Source: an uncultured Meiothermus sp.
GTDB taxonomy: Bacteria; Deinococcota; Deinococci; Deinococcales; Thermaceae
Assembly: GCF_937863175.1 (NCBI RefSeq)
Contig: NZ_CALMCQ010000343.1
Span: 1 to 41,953 of the forward strand
Direction of reading: 5' to 3'
DNA length: 41,953 nucleotides
The number at the start of each line of letters is the position of its first letter. Position 1 is the stretch's first letter. Both the position numbers and the translations under genes were made by a program. Below the pieces are notes generated by a model that was not told the DNA's origin, did no database searches, and worked only from the letters and a program-made list of their open reading frames with translations. Of this stretch, positions 13,149-24,286 are shown piece by piece.

Positions 13149-13889
13149 CTACTCCTTGCGGGCTACAGCCATGTACTCGGTCTCGTCCAGCTCAATCGGG
13201 CGTTTACCCCAGTTGCCCGCCGTGCCGCCCCAGACGTGAAGTTGTTTGAGCCCTACCTCGCGCATCAGCCACTTGAGTTCGCTGGGAAAGAGGCGGCGGT
13301 CTCTGTACTGAAGCCGCATGGTCTTGCCCCCGGCAACCTCCATCGTTTCGTCTTCTATCTCGACCATGCTTACCGGGTCAAAGCGCCCGCGGTGTATGTC
13401 GTCCTGGGTGTACTGGCGGATTTTCGAGTAGGGGTTGAGGGTGGTGAGCACCAACAGCGCACCCGGCTTTAGCGCGGCACTCACGTTGGCAAGGATGGCG
13501 CGGCTGTGTTCCTCGGGGTCGTCGCCCAGGTTGAACAGACCCAAAGCACCTTCGCACAAGCAGATTGCCGCGTCGAAGGTTTTATTGGCTCTGAACAGCG
13601 TTGCATCGCTATGCACCCACTCAACTTCTACACCTGCCGCCTTGGCGTTTTTGCGGGCCTGGGCCAACATTCCCGACGAAATATCCACGCCGGTCACCTG
13701 GTGGCCGCGCCTGGCGAGTTCAATCGCATGCCGCCCGACGCCGCAGCCAGTGTCGAGGATGGTAGAAGCTGGAGGGAGCTGGAACAGCTCGAGTAAAAAA
13801 TCTACTTCTGCCACGGTGTTCCGGGTAAAACCGTTGTTCAGGTATTCGGGTGCGTGTTGGTCGAAGAATTCCTGCCAGATGTGACTCAT
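13149..13889 (-). CDS. Class I SAM-dependent methyltransferase
   Basis: This 246-residue protein has the Rossmann SAM site ILDTGCGVGRH (motif I, about residues 44-54), the acidic motif II end GVDIS (about 68-72), the D-A motif WVHSDATLF (about 91-99) and a LKPGALLVLTTLNPYS post-motif at about 138-153. It transfers methyl from SAM; the acceptor is not evident, and small-molecule or cofactor methylation is more likely than nucleic acid, since no RNA-binding domain is present. The ATG at 13889 overlaps the stop of the RIO kinase gene by 4 nt. The order kinase, methyltransferase, three acetyltransferases suggests that all act on a common target or stress. Confidence 0.85.
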   Translation of the reverse strand: MSHIWQEFFDQHAPEYLNNGFTRNTVAEVDFLLELFQLPPASTILDTGCGVGRHAIELARRGHQVTGVDISSGMLAQARKNAKAAGVEVEWVHSDATLFRANKTFDAAICLCEGALGLFNLGDDPEEHSRAILANVSAALKPGALLVLTTLNPYSKIRQYTQDDIHRGRFDPVSMVEIEDETMEVAGGKTMRLQYRDRRLFPSELKWLMREVGLKQLHVWGGTAGNWGKRPIELDETEYMAVARKE

Positions 13890-15061
13890 AACAACTCTCC
13901 CATGGGGGTGAACGGGGTAGCGTTTTCGCGGGCAGTCTGCCAGACCCTGCGCAGTACCTCAGAGCCTTTAGGGTGTAAGCCCAGGTGACCAAAGGTGCGG
14001 CAGAGGCCGTTCACATCGCGCTCCAGAATCTCCTTGGCGCGGGGGTTCTTATCCCATTCCACCACCTGCGGGAAGTCAATCACAACTGCCTTGCCTTCCC
14101 ACCACAACAGGTTGAAGGTGGAGTAGTCGCCATGCACTTTGCCGTGGGCCAGCATTAAGCCCAGGTTGTGGATGGCCTGCTCCAGTGCATCCTGGGCCTC
14201 TTCTTTGTTCAGCCCAGCTTCACTCAGGCGGGGTGCAGGGCCTTCATCATCGCCAATAAACTCCATCAAGATCACGTTGCCAGCATGGGCGATGGGTCTG
14301 GGCACGGCCATGCCAGCCTGGTGCAGGGCGTGCAGTTGGCGGTATTCCTCCTCTACCCACAGGATGTTCTGCGCACTGACGCCGAACTGGCTGCGCTGGT
14401 CAATGGCCTTCTCGACGCGCTTGTCGCTGATGTAGCGGCCCTGGCGGTAAAGGGCGTCGTTTTTGAAGCTGCGAACGCGGCTATCCACGTAGAGCTTGGC
14501 CGCCAACAGGGGAAAACCCTCAACCACCCCCTCTCCCTTTTGGGGGAGGGGGCCGGGGGGTAGGGGAAGACTCTCAGCCGCTCGCCCCTCCCCTGGCGGG
14601 AGATGGCAGTAGTTGGAGGGGCGGGGGCGAACCAGAGGAGCTGTCTTGGCCGAGGCCCGCACTACGTACAGGGTGGCTTCCTTCCCGCTGCGCAGTTGCC
14701 ACAGCAACTCGCTAAAGTACTCCTTCTCGTACAGCTCTTGCAGGCCGGGGTCGCCAAAGGCGCGGCCCTGTTCCTGGCCGGACTCGAGCAGTTTCTTAAC
14801 CGACTGGCGGCGCGGGGGCTTGCGGGCCTTGCGGTGGGCGCGGTCGGCGAAATACTCGTGGTTATCGGCTTCATTCGAAAGCCAGTCGAAGCTGGAAGCT
14901 CTCAGCTCCTCGTCGAACCAGGTTGCGGCCTCGGAATCGGAAGGGGGTGCCTGGAGAGGGTGCAGACGGGGATTGTTGATAGACATTGGAACCTCAGAAA
15001 TACCAGTAAAGGGGGGCCTGGGATCGGAAGCATGGTTGGTTGAGTTCTGGGCAATTCCCAT
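13886..15061 (-). CDS. RIO1-type atypical protein kinase with repeat insertion
   Basis: This 391-residue protein has a RIO kinase domain: GKEATLYVVRA (glycine-loop region, residues 126-136), catalytic Lys189 in AAKLY, the hinge VILMEFIGD (about 263-271), catalytic Asp312 and Asn317 in HGDYSTFN, and metal Asp329 in VIDFPQ. RIO enzymes phosphorylate themselves or act as ATPases in ribosome biogenesis; bacterial roles are poorly defined. A block of about 49 residues (138-186), encoded by a palindromic GC-rich repeat, separates the glycine loop from Lys189. The N-terminal 80 residues are polar and probably disordered. ATG 15061 has AAAGGAG 6 nt upstream; a second ATG at 14983 would remove 26 residues. 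It heads the operon and lies downstream of a leader ORF and two hairpins. Confidence 0.85.
   Translation of the reverse strand: MGIAQNSTNHASDPRPPFTGISEVPMSINNPRLHPLQAPPSDSEAATWFDEELRASSFDWLSNEADNHEYFADRAHRKARKPPRRQSVKKLLESGQEQGRAFGDPGLQELYEKEYFSELLWQLRSGKEATLYVVRASAKTAPLVRPRPSNYCHLPPGEGRAAESLPLPPGPLPQKGEGVVEGFPLLAAKLYVDSRVRSFKNDALYRQGRYISDKRVEKAIDQRSQFGVSAQNILWVEEEYRQLHALHQAGMAVPRPIAHAGNVILMEFIGDDEGPAPRLSEAGLNKEEAQDALEQAIHNLGLMLAHGKVHGDYSTFNLLWWEGKAVVIDFPQVVEWDKNPRAKEILERDVNGLCRTFGHLGLHPKGSEVLRRVWQTARENATPFTPMGELL
14504..14650 (-). repeat. Palindromic repeat inserted in frame in the kinase gene
   Basis: Bases 14504-14650 encode a proline/glycine-rich stretch (including PLPPGPLPQKGEG) that RIO kinases do not have. 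The DNA is strongly palindromic: CGCCCCTCC at 14583-14591 pairs with GGAGGGGCG at 14615-14623, and CCCCCTC near 14527 pairs with GAGGGGG near 14545. The text resembles dispersed GC-rich intergenic repeats. The reading frame is kept on both sides. The exact borders are estimated from where kinase similarity stops. Confidence 0.7.
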
Positions 15062-18337: not shown

Positions 18338-19033
18338 TCATGGTCTTGAACCCTCCACCTCCGACCCCCGGTTACTTGTTTGCAGGCGCCCTACCCACAA
18401 AAAAGCGGTTGCCATTGCCCGGTTCAAGGTCTCTTGATTGGGTGGGTTTGTCAGCAAACGTTCTAACTCGGCCTCGCTGATGTTTTCCAACGGCCTTGCG
18501 CTGGGTTGGTCGCCGGCAAAGCGCATGGCCATTCCTTCGGCTTTCCAGCGTGGCCAGCCCTCGGGCTGGGCCAGATGGAATAACTCGTGGCGCAGGGTGC
18601 GCTCGAGGCTTTTCCGCTCGAGGAGAACGCGTAAACGCTGGCTGTCAATCTGGTTTTTAATTCGGTTGGCAGCAGATAGGACGAACCAGGGCAGCCGGGT
18701 TGCGGTGGTATAGGACTTTAGGTTGGGATGAACAACCACCCGCACCAAAGCAGGTGGGTGGTAGCCCGCTACGATCAAATCTCGGCGGGTCCTTTGAAGA
18801 ATTCCAAAGACTTCAGACAGGTGTCGGGCGTCCTCTGCCGAGGCGGTCTGTAGGACGAAGCCCGGCGCACGGGTGGTCTGCCAGCTCTGGGCAAGGGCAG
18901 TGGTTAGGAAGGCCAGCAGAACTATGGCGAGTAGGGCAGGGCAGCAGGGTTTGGGAGAGAAAGGCCGACCGGCTTCTGAAGTTGCCCCCCTGCCCCCTAG
19001 CCCGAAGGGCGATGCACCCCTGCCCCCCCTCAC
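18338..19033 (-). CDS. Exported HExxH metallopeptidase-like protein
   Basis: This 231-residue protein has a HELFH zinc motif (His149, Glu150, His153) followed by PRWKAEGMAM, in which Glu166 can be the third ligand, as in peptidase-MA-like gluzincins. A signal-type hydrophobic stretch at about residues 31-48 ends in ALA-QS. The first 28 residues are Gly/Arg-rich and are encoded by a GC-rich repeat, which is unusual before a signal peptide. GTG 19033 has GGAG 6 nt upstream and lies only 3 nt after the macroglobulin stop, so it is translationally coupled to it. It probably acts outside the membrane. Its pairing with a protease-trapping macroglobulin suggests a linked role, but the substrate is unknown. 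Confidence 0.7.
   Translation of the reverse strand: MRGGRGASPFGLGGRGATSEAGRPFSPKPCCPALLAIVLLAFLTTALAQSWQTTRAPGFVLQTASAEDARHLSEVFGILQRTRRDLIVAGYHPPALVRVVVHPNLKSYTTATRLPWFVLSAANRIKNQIDSQRLRVLLERKSLERTLRHELFHLAQPEGWPRWKAEGMAMRFAGDQPSARPLENISEAELERLLTNPPNQETLNRAMATAFLWVGRLQTSNRGSEVEGSRP
18980..19033. repeat. GC-rich repeat at the 5' end of the peptidase gene
   Basis: Direct copies of a C-rich unit (GCCCCCCTGCCCCC at about 18984 and CACCCCTGCCCCCC at about 19015) flank a perfect small palindrome, GCCCGAAGGGC at 19000-19010. The unit translates as GGRGASPFGLGGRGA before the signal peptide. It looks like an intergenic repeat that has become part of the reading frame. Confidence 0.55.
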
Positions 19034-19036
19034 GCC

Positions 19037-22000
19037 TTACTCCGTCACCCGCACCGTCCGCACCGTTCCGACCCCGCGCACTTCCGGCTCATACATCATC
19101 CAGGCCAGGGTGGGCAGCGCGGTGAAGTTACCCGGGGTCTCGGCCCGCAGCACGTAGGTGAAGGTTACGGGGCCACTCAGGTAGCTGAAAAAGAACTCTA
19201 CCTGCCGATCCCGGATTTCGCGCCCGTCGAACCAGTAGTTCCAGCCGTAGTAGTCGTCACCGAACCGGGAGCGCACTCCAGCAATGCGGAACGAGTCGTC
19301 GTTCTCCACCACACTCAGGCCAGCCGGAGTGGGTTCCTCCACCACCACATACCGCATAGCGCCCTGCTCGGGGCGCAGGGTGAGGGTCACGACCACCAAC
19401 TCCCCCATTTTCAGTGAGCCAGTGAGGGGGCTACGGTCGTAGACAAAACGCTCGGCCCTGGCATCGTAGCGGGGTGTGAGCTTCTCGTAGGTGCGGGCCA
19501 CCCGCAGGCCGCTGGACTCCGGGCGCAGATACTCCCGCTCCTCGAAATAGCCTACGCTGCCGCCGGCATACACCCGATGGTTGCTGGTGAACTGCACTAC
19601 GTTCTCGCCTGGCTTCAAACCCTCCAGGGCCAGCTCGCCACCCCAGGCCGGAACCCGCAGGGTCTGCTCCTGCCCATTTACCCTGACCTGCACTTCCTGT
19701 TCGCCGGGTTGCTCGCCAGTAGCCCCGGCCAGGGCCAGCGCCGCTACCACCACTGCGGCGGTGTCCTTGGTGGAAGTCCAGCGCGCCCCTCTGCGTTCCT
19801 GCATCAGCCAGTTCACGATTTTGGGAATGACCGGGTGGGCTGGGTGCAGCCGGGCCAGGGCTTCCAGACCCCGCGCGGTGGCTTCAATGCGGTCGTCGTT
19901 CCAGGCCCAGCGGGGAGCCCGCACCTCCCAGTAGGCGCTGCGCTCGCGCTCGGTCAGCTTCTGTAGCAGGCCATCCAGCGCCCGCTCGGCCTGTGCCCGA
20001 TCCCCGTTTTGCTGGAAGGCCAGCACAATCAAGGCATGACCGTAGGGGGTGAGGTCGGGCCGGGTCAGGTAGTCTTGCAGGTAGCCAAAATTCAGAGGTT
20101 GAGATGGTTGGAGAGCGGTGCGGTTCAGCAGGGGAGGGCCTGCATGCAGTACGCCGGGCTGCCAGCCCTGGGGCACGTATTTTGGCCCGGCCAGGGCAAA
20201 GGCATAGGCGGCGTAGGCCACCGCATCGGCGGCATAGGTGTTGGCGTCGGGCCGGTTCAGGGTCTTGAGCAGATACGCCACACCCCGTTTGAGTACGTCC
20301 TCGCGCACGGTGTAACCCGCCTCCTGGGCCTGCAACAGTCCGGTCAATACATACGAGGAGATGTAGACCGAAGAGGCGTCGTTTTGCCAGAAGCCCCAGC
20401 CGCCGTCCTCGAGCTGGAAGTCGTAGAGGCGGCGCAGCCCTACAGCCACAAAATCGTCGAGGTTGGCCGAAAGGTTCTCGGGCAACCGGACAAAGCCACC
20501 GGCTTGCCTGGCCAGCACACTGGGCAGGAAGCGGCTCATGGTCTGCTCGGAACAGCCATAGGGATAGCCTGCCAGATAACCCAGGGCGGGGGTGACGGCA
20601 GCGGCCAGCGAGGGGGTGAGGTAGAGCTTGCCTCGGGTCTGCGAGAGGTCGGTGTTTGGGGGTAGGTCAAACCGCCAAATATCGCCAGACTGTCCGGCCC
20701 AGCCCAGTTCTCCCTTCAAGCCCTTGGGCAGAATCGGCAGGCGGATCCGCAGGGCATCCGAAGCGGCGGGTGTGAGGGCCGAGGCCTCCAGAGTGGCGGT
20801 GCCGCTCTGGTCGGCCCGCACCCGGTAACGGGTCGAGGTACGGCCCCCTGCCGGGAACTGGGCCAGGGTGGTGGGCGGCGCGAGCAGGTTGAGGCCGGTG
20901 GGCTCGAGCCTCAGTTGACCCTGCCGGTTTTCGCCCAGGTTGTTCTGCCCGATTACCCGCAGGACTGCCTCGTCGCCCCGAATCAGGAAGCGCGGGGTGC
21001 TAAGGCGGGCAATCACCGGCAGGGTGGTGGTGACGGTCTGGGTAGCCTGCCCCACGGTATCCGAGAGCGAGATGGCCCTGGCCGTCAGGCGCCACTGGGT
21101 CAGGTTGTCGGGGAAGGCGGCCTCTACGCTGGTCTCGCCCAACTCGTTGGTCTCGACCGTAGGGAGCCAGAGGAGGGTATCGCGGAAATCCTGGCGCACC
21201 TGAGGGTCGGCCAGCTTGGATTCTTTGGCCTGCCCAAAGACGGCTTTGTCCAGGGGCGCCCGGGCCGCTATGCTGGGTGCGGGTGCCACATTGCCGAAGT
21301 AGTAGCCTCCGGCGGTCTGGGTGCCCACCACGTTGCTCCGGAAGGCCCAGAAGAAGCCGCGAATGTCCGTGGCTTTCTCGGGGCGTACCAGATAGATGGC
21401 CTCGTCCACCAGTCCGAGCGTGACCTGGCTGCGCACTGGACGCCCATTCGCGTCGGTCACTTTCAGGCGATAGGTAGCGGTCTCGCCTGGTTTGTAGGTG
21501 GTTTTGTCGGAGGCCACGGCCACGTTCAGGAATTTCTCTACTGGCGGCAGCAAAAAGCCCGCCACGTCGGAGTAATATTCGCCGCCTCCCAGCACCGTAA
21601 CCGACAGGTAGCCATTGGGGGCCATCTCGGACGTAAGTTTGAGGTCGTAGGTGAAGGTGGAACCCTGGAAGCGCACAATTTCTGGTTTGGAAATGGTCTG
21701 ACCCTCCAGATTGACCAGCGCCCAGCCATCGGCGATCGGCGACTGCACCACGAACCGGGCGGTCTCGCCAGCCCTGTACTCGGGTTTGTCCACGGTAATC
21801 TTCAGGCTCTTGTAGTCCCAGAACCAGTACGAACCATCCGAGACCCAGACCCAGTCCTCGGCGCGGGTGGCCCGCCCGGCTCCATCGCGGGCCTGCACGA
21901 CCAGGGCATAGGAGCCTTGTTGGGGTAGTCGCAGGCGGACGCTGGCCTGGCCTCTGGCGTCGGTGCGACCCTGCAGGCTGACCCCGCGCTCGCGCTGTTC

Positions 22001-23485
22001 GCCCCTGCCGCGCAGCCAGTACGAGCGCTGGGCTACCACCGTAAAGGGTACTGAGACCGGGTTGCCCTCCAGGTCCTGCGCCCGCACCGTAGCGGTGATG
22101 GCGTCGCTGGTCTGATAGGCGTAGCCCTCGGTGCGGATGTCCAGCACAATCCCGGAGCGATACGCGGTAATAAATTCACTGCTGCTGACTTCGCGCCCCG
22201 CTTCGTCGGTCACGCCGGCCTCGAGGGTCAGCCGGTAGTCCTGCGGGTCGGCCTTGAGCGGCGCTTCCACCACCAGCTCGCCTTTGTCGTTCAGCCGCCC
22301 CTCGCCGCGCTGGATGATCCTGCCCTCGTAGCTATCCTCAAACTCGTAGTTCTGGTAGAAGCCGTAGCTCGAGACATACGCAAAGCGATGGTAGGGTCGC
22401 TGGATAATTGAGTAATTCACTTTTCCGCCCGAGACCGGCCCGCCAAACAGGTACTCGCCCTTCACCACAAAACGGGCCCGCTCCCCCTGCACGGCTACTT
22501 TTTTCTCTGCCGTGACGCTGACGCGGTACTCGGGCTTAACAAACTCCTGCACTTCAAACTCGCCCGAATGAGCCTCGCCCTGTAAACGCGCCACGACCGT
22601 ATAACCCCCCAGCCGGGCATCCAATCCGACACGAAACTGCCCCCCAAAGCTGCCGTAGGCATCGCTGGTGAGGCGGGCGGAGAAAACCTCGGAGTCGTCA
22701 AGGTCGCGCACCACCACCTCGACCGGTTGATGGGCTACCGGGCGCAGACCCAGTGCGGTGCGGGCGGTGCCCTTGAAAAACACCGTATGGCCGGGGCGAT
22801 AGACCGGGCGATCGGTGACCAGATAGACCCGGTTTTTCTCCAGGTTCCAGCTTTCCCAGTAGGCGTTGCTAAAAGCCCAGGAAGTGCCTGAGCGGGCAGC
22901 CATAAAGAGGTTGTCGGTGTTGTGCAAATTGCTGCGAAACTGGGCCAGCCCGCCTTCGGCCCGTAGCTGCTGTACCACCCGCATGTCCTTGGACACAAAA
23001 ATTTGGGCGGTTCGGGGCTGCCCGTTGCTCAGGCTGGCGGTATAGGCCAGTATTCTTTGCGGGTCGGACTTGACCACCAGCCCCAGGCTGGTCACCAGGA
23101 TCAGCGTGGCCGAGGTCGGACGAGGGGTGCCAATCTGGGCCAGATACAGGCCTTCAGGCAAGCGCCCAAGGCTCACGTTGCCATAGGGGTTGTTGCGCAG
23201 CCGAAAAACCGGCACCGTACGCACTGGAGATAAATCCAGCTCTCGGGTGCGCTGAAATTCGCGCGGGCCACCGAGTTCAACCACCTTTTCGGGGTTGCGA
23301 ATGCGCAGGATGCGGATCTGGCTGCTGCCACCCCCTGGCAGGTAGTACTCCAGCCGCACCTGCTGGGCGGGGCTGTAAGTTCCGCCACCGTACAACTGGG
23401 GTTCCTGGCGCTGGGCCGAGCCCGGTATCAACCCAATCAAGAAAAGTCCCAGTAAACCAGTCCCTGTTCTCCAAAAACGCTTCAT
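19037..23485 (-). CDS. yfaS: Bacterial alpha-2-macroglobulin, YfaS-like
   Basis: This 1482-residue secreted protein belongs to the bacterial alpha-2-macroglobulins, which trap proteases by a bait region and a reactive thioester. An N-terminal signal peptide (RFWRTGTGLLGLFLIGLIPG, cleavage likely after GSA) has no lipobox Cys, so it is probably periplasmic rather than a lipoprotein. Many MG beta-sandwich domains follow, with typical text such as NRVYLVTDRPVYRPGHTV and KPEYRAGETARFVVQSP. The thioester motif GCSEQ gives Cys978 and Gln981, followed by the helical TED domain (VGLRRLYDFQLEDGGWGFW) and a receptor-like C-terminus. ATG 23485 is chosen because GGGAGG ends 8 nt upstream; ATG 23491 would leave 2 nt. 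DUF1175 lies upstream and a peptidase downstream. Confidence 0.93.
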   Translation of the reverse strand: MKRFWRTGTGLLGLFLIGLIPGSAQRQEPQLYGGGTYSPAQQVRLEYYLPGGGSSQIRILRIRNPEKVVELGGPREFQRTRELDLSPVRTVPVFRLRNNPYGNVSLGRLPEGLYLAQIGTPRPTSATLILVTSLGLVVKSDPQRILAYTASLSNGQPRTAQIFVSKDMRVVQQLRAEGGLAQFRSNLHNTDNLFMAARSGTSWAFSNAYWESWNLEKNRVYLVTDRPVYRPGHTVFFKGTARTALGLRPVAHQPVEVVVRDLDDSEVFSARLTSDAYGSFGGQFRVGLDARLGGYTVVARLQGEAHSGEFEVQEFVKPEYRVSVTAEKKVAVQGERARFVVKGEYLFGGPVSGGKVNYSIIQRPYHRFAYVSSYGFYQNYEFEDSYEGRIIQRGEGRLNDKGELVVEAPLKADPQDYRLTLEAGVTDEAGREVSSSEFITAYRSGIVLDIRTEGYAYQTSDAITATVRAQDLEGNPVSVPFTVVAQRSYWLRGRGEQRERGVSLQGRTDARGQASVRLRLPQQGSYALVVQARDGAGRATRAEDWVWVSDGSYWFWDYKSLKITVDKPEYRAGETARFVVQSPIADGWALVNLEGQTISKPEIVRFQGSTFTYDLKLTSEMAPNGYLSVTVLGGGEYYSDVAGFLLPPVEKFLNVAVASDKTTYKPGETATYRLKVTDANGRPVRSQVTLGLVDEAIYLVRPEKATDIRGFFWAFRSNVVGTQTAGGYYFGNVAPAPSIAARAPLDKAVFGQAKESKLADPQVRQDFRDTLLWLPTVETNELGETSVEAAFPDNLTQWRLTARAISLSDTVGQATQTVTTTLPVIARLSTPRFLIRGDEAVLRVIGQNNLGENRQGQLRLEPTGLNLLAPPTTLAQFPAGGRTSTRYRVRADQSGTATLEASALTPAASDALRIRLPILPKGLKGELGWAGQSGDIWRFDLPPNTDLSQTRGKLYLTPSLAAAVTPALGYLAGYPYGCSEQTMSRFLPSVLARQAGGFVRLPENLSANLDDFVAVGLRRLYDFQLEDGGWGFWQNDASSVYISSYVLTGLLQAQEAGYTVREDVLKRGVAYLLKTLNRPDANTYAADAVAYAAYAFALAGPKYVPQGWQPGVLHAGPPLLNRTALQPSQPLNFGYLQDYLTRPDLTPYGHALIVLAFQQNGDRAQAERALDGLLQKLTERERSAYWEVRAPRWAWNDDRIEATARGLEALARLHPAHPVIPKIVNWLMQERRGARWTSTKDTAAVVVAALALAGATGEQPGEQEVQVRVNGQEQTLRVPAWGGELALEGLKPGENVVQFTSNHRVYAGGSVGYFEEREYLRPESSGLRVARTYEKLTPRYDARAERFVYDRSPLTGSLKMGELVVVTLTLRPEQGAMRYVVVEEPTPAGLSVVENDDSFRIAGVRSRFGDDYYGWNYWFDGREIRDRQVEFFFSYLSGPVTFTYVLRAETPGNFTALPTLAWMMYEPEVRGVGTVRTVRVTE

Positions 23486-23507
23486 ATACATAGCCTCCCG
23501 ACAGTAT

Positions 23508-24275
23508 TCAAGGAGCACGCAGGCTCTGGTTGCTAACGATTTTCCAGCGATAGAATCCCAAAAAATAGGGGTTATCGGGCCGGGGATGCCAGTATTTCTG
23601 GGGGTGTTTATTCAGGGTTTGCAGGGTTACCAACCGCACCTCGCCGCCTTCCTGGGGCGCATAGCCGGTGTGGTAGACCACCCGCCCACTGCCCAGATAC
23701 ACCATGCTGTGATAGGCCGAACCCCGGGCCAGCGGGTGAATAAAAAACAGCAGGTCGCCCCGCCGGGCCCGGTCTTCGGTGCGACCCAGGAATTCGCTCG
23801 AGTACCGCATCAGATACATCGCGCTGGTGCGCCCTACCAGGCGGCCCTCCTGCACGTCGTCGGGCCGATAGGCCCCTGGGGCCACCCGGAAGACCGAACG
23901 ACCGATCCGGGGTAGGGGGTAGGCGCTCTGTGGCGGAGTGTTGATTGCCGGCAGATAGGCGAACTGTTTGAACCAGGCCTGGGTCTTGGGTTTGAGGGCT
24001 TGCACAAAAGCGAACCGCAGTAGCCCGGCGCAGTCCTGGTCTGCGGGCTTCCAGGTGGACGAGAGGGCGGTGAACTGGGCCTCGGCAACGGCGGCAAACC
24101 AGTGCAAAAAAGCCTCGCGCTGGGCTGCGCTATGGAACTCGGCTATATCTGGATAGCCGTCCAGGTCATGGTCAATCCAGTTTCTGGGTTCCTGGGCCAG
24201 GGCCGCATGTACGCTGCCCAGAATCAAAAAACCCAGGACTCCCCCTACCAGCAAACCTCTTACCCAGGGTTTCAT
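23508..24275 (-). CDS. yfaT: DUF1175 (YfaT-like) NlpC/P60-type protein
   Basis: This 255-residue exported protein has a signal peptide ending AALA-Q (about residue 27). The core has DCAGLLRF with Cys82, and HSMVYLG with His189, the Cys/His layout of NlpC/P60-like cysteine peptidases or amidases. DUF1175 proteins are encoded next to alpha-2-macroglobulins, as yfaT is next to yfaS in Escherichia coli. It may cut cell-wall peptides or serve macroglobulin maturation; neither is shown. ATG 24275 begins the signal peptide; a TTG two codons upstream is possible. TACAAT lies 11 nt before the ATG, so the message has a very short leader. The macroglobulin starts 22 nt after the stop. Confidence 0.85.
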   Translation of the reverse strand: MKPWVRGLLVGGVLGFLILGSVHAALAQEPRNWIDHDLDGYPDIAEFHSAAQREAFLHWFAAVAEAQFTALSSTWKPADQDCAGLLRFAFVQALKPKTQAWFKQFAYLPAINTPPQSAYPLPRIGRSVFRVAPGAYRPDDVQEGRLVGRTSAMYLMRYSSEFLGRTEDRARRGDLLFFIHPLARGSAYHSMVYLGSGRVVYHTGYAPQEGGEVRLVTLQTLNKHPQKYWHPRPDNPYFLGFYRWKIVSNQSLRAP

Positions 24276-24286
24276 GCTCAAGTCCG

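Follow-up and report, generated by a model that had tools for sequence, protein, structure and literature searches.

Do all bacterial macroglobulins wait for foreign proteases, as they are thought to do, or might some of them be served by a protease of their own? This question is raised by a locus in the 41,953-nucleotide contig NZ_CALMCQ010000343.1 (hereafter the window) of a hot-spring bacterium, an uncultured Meiothermus sp., in which three genes follow one another on the minus strand. The first (23508..24281, with an ATG at 24275) encodes an exported NlpC/P60-like protein of the DUF1175 (PF06672) or MagC family, the second (19037..23518) an alpha-2-macroglobulin (A2M) with the Pfam domains MG2, A2M_BRD (the bait region), A2M, TED_complement and bMG10, and the third (18338..19033) a predicted exported minimal gluzincin metallopeptidase that we call MA. 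It is established for the A2M family that cleavage of the bait springs a conformational trap and sets off the thioester. The original prediction, made from the letters of this DNA, had described the three genes as one operon at 18338-24275 and had placed the start of the third 3 nt past the A2M stop codon, and both points are confirmed: the GTG start of MA follows the TAA of A2M at that distance and is the only ATG, GTG or TTG ahead of the signal peptide in its frame. The likeness it had drawn to E. coli yfaT/yfaS also holds, since the yfaT-yfaS order is the same in E. coli K-12 and in Citrobacter. The arrangement recurs across Deinococcota and is therefore not a matter of chance. We tentatively favour the reading that MA is the dedicated protease of this A2M and probably cuts its bait, a reading in which we infer the activity, the substrate and the cut site of MA. 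The observations that carry it are gene content, gene order, co-occurrence, catalytic residues, a predicted fold and a bait motif that goes with MA.

Neither Pfam nor NCBIfam has a model that matched the window MA protein at E ≤ 1, and neither DUF1570, DUF5700 nor any other named peptidase family of Pfam reached its curated cut-off with it. Matches below threshold were seen for DUF5700 in 2 of 24 MA members (best 2.5e-4) and for DUF1570 among the seven MA relatives scanned (best 0.0012, 19.6 bits against a cut-off of 22). The protein does carry a zinc-binding motif, HELFH (18589-18575, minus strand; helix 94-106 of the model), and, after a spacer of twelve residues, a glutamate that is a candidate third zinc ligand (HExxH-x12-E, in WKAEG; 18536..18538, minus strand; helix 113-124). 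H100, E101, H104 and E117 are invariant in all 24 aligned MA relatives and stay so when four Deinococcus proteins are added (28/28). The AlphaFold2 model of MA, a single domain of about 165 residues, has a predicted local distance difference test score (pLDDT) of 94.2 and a predicted template modelling score of 0.88. Its top Foldseek matches are the catalytic domains of clostridial collagenases (collagenase H, 7zoc, E 2e-4), followed by gluzincins of the aminopeptidase type. A second aligner, VIA, paired it with the Grimontia collagenase 7wss_A (Z 11.4, root-mean-square deviation 3.5, 166 residues aligned), with similar values for M1 aminopeptidases; identity to the matched collagenases and aminopeptidases is roughly 8-15%, and the likeness to M9 and M1 is one of fold only. 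Because the motif is conserved in the relatives and the predicted fold agrees with it, we conclude that MA is a minimal exported gluzincin with a putative zinc-dependent activity, which bears out the earlier description of the third gene as encoding an exported metallopeptidase-like protein.

One line of evidence for an MA that serves the A2M is linkage. Across 111 Deinococcota genomes, a sample returned alike by searches at the level of the order and of the phylum, MA is present in 24, DUF1175 in 21 and a bait-domain A2M in 40, 22 of which also have MA. All 21 genomes with DUF1175 have MA as well, while MA without DUF1175 was found in G003, G023 and G072 (the last 67% complete). In 22 of the 24 cases the gene immediately before MA, on the same strand, is an A2M. 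Within the genus of the window, all three genes are missing from five genomes. Among 72,556 plasmid records, MA was found in five and a full-length A2M relative (at least 80% of the query) in the identical five, one from Meiothermus taiwanensis, which we took to be the same species as genome G043 and counted once, and four from Deinococcus. The two genes adjoin in all five, and the neighbours outside the unit vary from record to record. DUF1175 is more loosely attached: it lies about 100 kb or more away on the D7000 and AJ005 plasmids, with A2M and MA still paired, and on a different contig in G007, so that the bond between A2M and MA is tighter than the link to DUF1175. A scan of genome contigs with a single pattern, which distant relatives could escape, returned 12 MA loci, all of them from Deinococcota, and no MA relative was found in viral contigs. 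The predicted three-part module is thus conserved across Deinococcota, and MA, which travels with A2M across the Deinococcus-Thermus group, may be its dedicated trigger. Two further observations concern these loci. In G099 (L092:6853-7624) DUF1175 is split into two adjacent open reading frames, by a frameshift or a sequencing error, with A2M and MA intact; and all five plasmid copies of the pair (L104, L105, L106, L107, L110) lie on large replicons typed as non-mobilizable.

Such linkage could also come about with no interaction at all, the three genes being inherited together through co-regulation and MA acting on unrelated substrates. MA can indeed outlive A2M. In G023 (L081:11490-12559) DUF1175 and most of the A2M have been lost and a C-terminal A2M stub stands behind an acetate-kinase-like gene, with the MA gene intact, and in G003 MA is preceded by a GGDEF-type gene (both neighbours named from their translations). 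Against mere co-regulation speak the adjacency that recurs in differing neighbourhoods, the joint absence of the genes and a bait motif specific to MA-paired proteins, and we regard it as quite improbable. The dedicated pairing and adjacency would equally suit an MA that is a bound passenger of the A2M, a latent peptidase in an inhibitor-chaperone relation that would be set free or switched on by the firing of the trap. No sequence feature separates such a passenger from a bait-cutting protease, and we give this arrangement very little credence.

Evidence that bears on a bait-cutting MA also lies in the A2M itself. Its thioester motif, CSEQ (in YPYGCSEQ; 20543..20554, minus strand), is of the CxEQ form, which is found in every MA-paired A2M whose TED was covered and is absent from both enteric YfaS proteins examined. 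The bait region (residues 745-774; 21197..21286, minus strand) lies between A2M_BRD, which ends at 710, and the A2M domain, which begins at 781, and aligns with the disordered bait of the E. coli macroglobulin ECAM. Within it the alignment of MA-paired A2Ms picks out the pentapeptide FGQAK (21224..21238, minus strand): F761, Q763 and K765 are present in 26 of 26 MA-paired A2Ms, in three of which (G034, G072, G002) the part with the motif and MA lie on separate contigs, and the conserved form is F-[GAS]-Q-x-K in a loop that otherwise varies in length and sequence. Among Deinococcota A2Ms that have no MA the motif occurs in none of 14 (8 aligned and 6 further ones from genomes without MA, two additional loci having been left out because they repeat genomes already counted), and Citrobacter YfaS does not have it either. 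G007 carries both kinds of A2M, the copy next to MA with the motif and the other copy without it. The suggestion that the peptidase processes the bait region is supported indirectly by this co-occurrence (26/26 versus 0/14); the other two suggestions of the original prediction, that the peptidase may be held by the macroglobulin or may digest trapped proteases, are conjectural.

How specific is this association? In the A2M tree, G008 and a trio formed by G005, G006 and the second G007 copy fall within the clade to which every MA-paired A2M belongs. (The alignment leaves out rows shorter than 1000 residues, namely L078, L081, L087 and L089, and the comparison leaves out the second A2M of G005.) Both MA and DUF1175 are missing from G005, G006 and G008, and no open reading frame with an HExxH motif was found in the available stretches flanking these four A2Ms. 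MA is therefore tied to a single A2M subtype and is not something that A2Ms need in general. Macroglobulin genes without this neighbour in close relatives, which had been named beforehand as the finding that would count against the module, thus do exist in these four cases, so that this counter-finding is borne out in part and an A2M can do without MA. The MA-paired A2Ms have 187 invariant columns, of which all four of these in-clade proteins retain 141 and all four lack seven: Y331, G702, F761, Q763, K765, P786 and Q824. A second A2M alignment gave the same column numbers. The stretch 745-774 contains only three invariant columns, F761, Q763 and K765, and all three are among the seven. The chance of this trio falling among the seven, computed by hand and post hoc, is 7x6x5/(187x186x185), or ~3e-5, a figure that treats columns as independent and ignores relatedness, although as few as two loss events may be involved. 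A control split of the A2Ms gave 2 of 163 columns, none of them in the bait. Conservation of the bait as a whole is not informative, since the ratio of bait identity to overall identity is 0.91 for 60 closer pairs of A2Ms with MA, 0.67 and 0.70 for distant groups with MA and 0.64 for 3 pairs that lack it; the pentapeptide alone is distinctive. As a separate observation, Deinococcus sp. NW-56 (L137:4109-10234) has a gene for a C39-family peptidase, of papain-like fold, directly upstream of a different A2M; a hypothetical protein after that A2M, suspected of being an HExxH protein, proved not to be one.

A conserved pentapeptide in a bait need not be a cleavage site, and its strongest rival explanation is a structural role. 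F761 aligns with Phe947 of ECAM, which begins a stretch (947-963) that takes up an ordered position on the C-terminal MG domain once ECAM has been cleaved, as described in the accessible part of PMC4498604. F-x-Q-x-K could be structural because F761 corresponds to the Phe947 of this docking stretch; it would then be an A2M switch that docks on that domain, with MA acting downstream to degrade trapped proteases or spent A2M, a task that would suit a small enzyme with no pro-domain. Set against such a switch, the alignment pairs neither Q763 nor K765 with an identical ECAM residue, and the motif is missing in the in-clade A2Ms that share the same architecture and have no MA. On balance we judge a docking switch with a downstream MA to be rather unlikely.

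The DUF1175 member of the operon directs attention to the cell wall. The window DUF1175 protein matches PF06672 at E 1.4e-48 (165.8 bits against a cut-off of 27) and NLPC_P60 at 5.3e-5, and its family profile matches the structure of P. aeruginosa MagC (7bk8) at E 1.1e-29. From a modest model (pLDDT 65) Foldseek gave a match at 3e-12, the folds matched being those of MagC and of MepS-like NlpC/P60 proteins. By these comparisons of profile and predicted structure, DUF1175 is the MagC family. C84, H191 and H204, which we take to correspond to the catalytic cysteine and the two histidines of NlpC/P60 enzymes, are identical in all 26 full DUF1175 rows, including E. coli YfaT. In the accessible part of a review (PMC10318531), DUF1175 is described as inactive and peptidoglycan-binding. 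On two Deinococcus plasmids (L108:6532-8642, L109:6575-8666) DUF1175 stands directly after a gene for anhydro-N-acetylmuramic acid kinase, which hints at a link to wall recycling. MA might accordingly act on the cell wall or on other envelope proteins, as part of a set for envelope repair, with A2M as the guard against proteases and with DUF1175 and MA maintaining the peptidoglycan. The folds matched by DUF1175, its description as a peptidoglycan binder, the neighbouring kinase, the retention of MA with no intact A2M in G003 and G023, and the resemblance of a yfaQ deletion to deletions of mepK and mepS (accessible part of PMC12282094) would all suit such a set. Yet where A2M and DUF1175 separate MA stays with A2M, the nearest folds of MA are protein peptidases and the bait motif goes with MA, and we think a wall-directed MA unlikely.

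Do other macroglobulin operons have a counterpart of MA? The E. coli K-12 order is yfaA (DUF2138), yfaT (DUF1175), yfaS (A2M, a pseudogene), yfaQ (DUF2300) and yfaP (DUF2135); in Citrobacter the genes are intact and follow one another in this order. The end of E. coli YfaQ reads THEYLHLAFDGYPTGLDENYIE and that of Citrobacter YfaQ THEYLHLAFEGYPSGLDETYIE, each followed by a short tail; the two proteins are 50% identical overall and share an identical run of 16 residues, LQDRLDLTHEYLHLAF. Both thus hold, inside the Pfam DUF2300 region, an unannotated C-terminal HExxH (THEYLHLAF.GYP.GLDE; L102:5368-14645 in E. coli, L103:2028-11363 in Citrobacter), and the gene after A2M therefore encodes an HExxH protein in the enteric as well as the Deinococcota systems. 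The N-terminal part of YfaQ has SxxK- and KTW-like motifs, presumably like those of penicillin-binding proteins. Homology between MA and the C-terminal part of YfaQ is suggested by hhalign (score 29.4, probability 39%; 14.6% with the whole protein), a DUF1175 control scoring far lower. This score was reached by 0 of 200 full shuffles and by 8 of 200 shuffles that kept the HExxH block, so that most of the signal comes from the block itself. A search for YfaQ homology with the MA profile in hmmsearch gave scores of 2.0 or less, and the DUF2300 model (PF10062) at E ≤ 10 misses the MA loci in the 111 genomes. YfaQ relatives on plasmids came only from E. coli and Citrobacter, with one weak partial match from Tsukamurella, and none was found in viral contigs; because so few relatives were found, the comparison relies, for YfaQ, on a pair of diverged sequences. 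According to the accessible part of a 2025 mSystems article (PMC12282094), YfaQ has transpeptidase-like and SpoIID-like parts and its deletion is linked to mepK and mepS; in the accessible text of that article no word begins with metallo, HExxH, zinc or peptidase.

The pseudomonad system offers an experimental parallel. In the accessible part of the work of Zouhir et al. (PMC5764988), a protease that is not named cleaves the P. aeruginosa macroglobulin MagD in vivo, which leaves a 100-kDa form, and both the amount and the processing of MagD are disturbed when MagE, encoded directly after magD, is lost, although the account of this point there is internally inconsistent. From gene order we infer that MagE is a DUF2300 protein. 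Taken together, the cleavage of MagD in vivo, the effect of magE and an HExxH at the same position in yfaQ may serve, by analogy, as a precedent for a dedicated A2M protease.

Several points weigh against such a protease in Deinococcota. MA outlives an intact A2M in G023 and G003, and some A2Ms within the clade are kept with no MA beside them. The contrast in the motif between A2Ms with and without MA rests on few independent losses, and the alignment with ECAM leaves room for a structural role. The link between MA and YfaQ is weak, both in its hhalign probabilities and in the shuffles that keep the motif. The accessible part of Zouhir et al. (PMC5764988) reads the magE effect as possible help to signal-peptide cleavage, reports no stable complex of MagD and MagE, and considers MagE cytoplasmic.

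How, then, might a dedicated MA work? The three proteins would form an envelope module around a thioester macroglobulin. The DUF1175 protein, by comparison with P. aeruginosa MagC, would be its peptidoglycan-binding partner, and the A2M would be a trap fired by bait cleavage. MA would be an exported zinc peptidase devoted to the A2M as its substrate, one that cuts or trims the bait at or near F-[GAS]-Q-x-K, and it could thereby prime, fire or retire the trap on the cell's own terms and not only when a foreign protease arrives. That these proteins lie at the surface is uncertain, the Sec-type signals on them having been judged by eye. A bolder version, possible but doubtful, makes A2M and MA a complement-like pair: the bait would hold a private site for the co-encoded zinc peptidase, the cell itself would fire the trap or the covalent tag, the peptidoglycan-binding partner would place it, and in enterobacteria and pseudomonads the C-terminal HExxH domain of YfaQ or MagE would play the same role and be the protease behind MagD cleavage. 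A peptidase encoded and inherited with the A2M, and a pentapeptide conserved where the bait would be expected to drift, make it testable whether a dedicated partner fires some macroglobulins, and we offer the data as a hint in that direction. The overlooked HExxH at the end of YfaQ, and possibly of MagE by gene order, can be mutated in laboratory strains.

The remaining features of the window are recorded here. The likelier starts of the A2M gene are ATG 23491 or ATG 23485, preceded by GGGAGG, and by eye its signal peptide has no lipobox cysteine. The flanking open reading frames that were searched encode YhhN, an FAD/NAD reductase, a TIM barrel, NrdR and a RIO kinase, and no gene of the pbpC type was found among them. 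Ahead of its RIO domain, the RIO-domain kinase gene (window 13886-15061) contains PLPLPPGPLPQKGEG, a proline/glycine-rich stretch in frame that resembles an inserted repeat. A putative DNA repeat in the signal-peptide region of MA was rejected, as it occurs once in the genome, a draft in 488 contigs. PADLOC returned no match. In a literature search on macroglobulins, DUF1175 and YfaQ that covered titles and the starts of abstracts, with most subscription journals outside its reach, no paper on this peptidase was found.

Set beside known systems, the operon resembles the Type II systems, the Mag operon of P. aeruginosa and the yfa operon of E. coli, in having DUF1175 (MagC/YfaT) directly upstream of A2M and, as in the enteric version, a next gene downstream that encodes an HExxH, which in YfaQ is C-terminal. 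It differs from them in its partners, DUF2138 and, above its cut-off, DUF2300 each being found in 0 of the 111 Deinococcota genomes, and in that MA is predicted to be a stand-alone peptidase, whereas YfaQ adds transpeptidase-like and SpoIID parts. With the Type I A2M (E. coli YfhM/ECAM, with PbpC) the window protein shares the thioester motif, domain order and bait position, but it is shorter, shows no lipobox cysteine, and is accompanied by DUF1175 and a peptidase instead of a pbpC gene among the flanking genes searched. Because CxEQ is present here and absent in two YfaS proteins, the operon combines Type II gene order with Type I chemistry. MA in turn has its HExxH, downstream glutamate and fold in common with the M9 collagenase catalytic domain, M1 aminopeptidases and DUF1570/DUF5700, and it is set apart from these families of clan MA by its minimal single domain, its low identity and the absence of any matching Pfam family. 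Complement C3-like thioester proteins have dedicated convertases, and the logic proposed here would be the same, as an analogy only, with no homology of the protease implied. The DUF1175-A2M-MA operon is thus a variant of the Mag/Yfa type that the known operons explain only in part.

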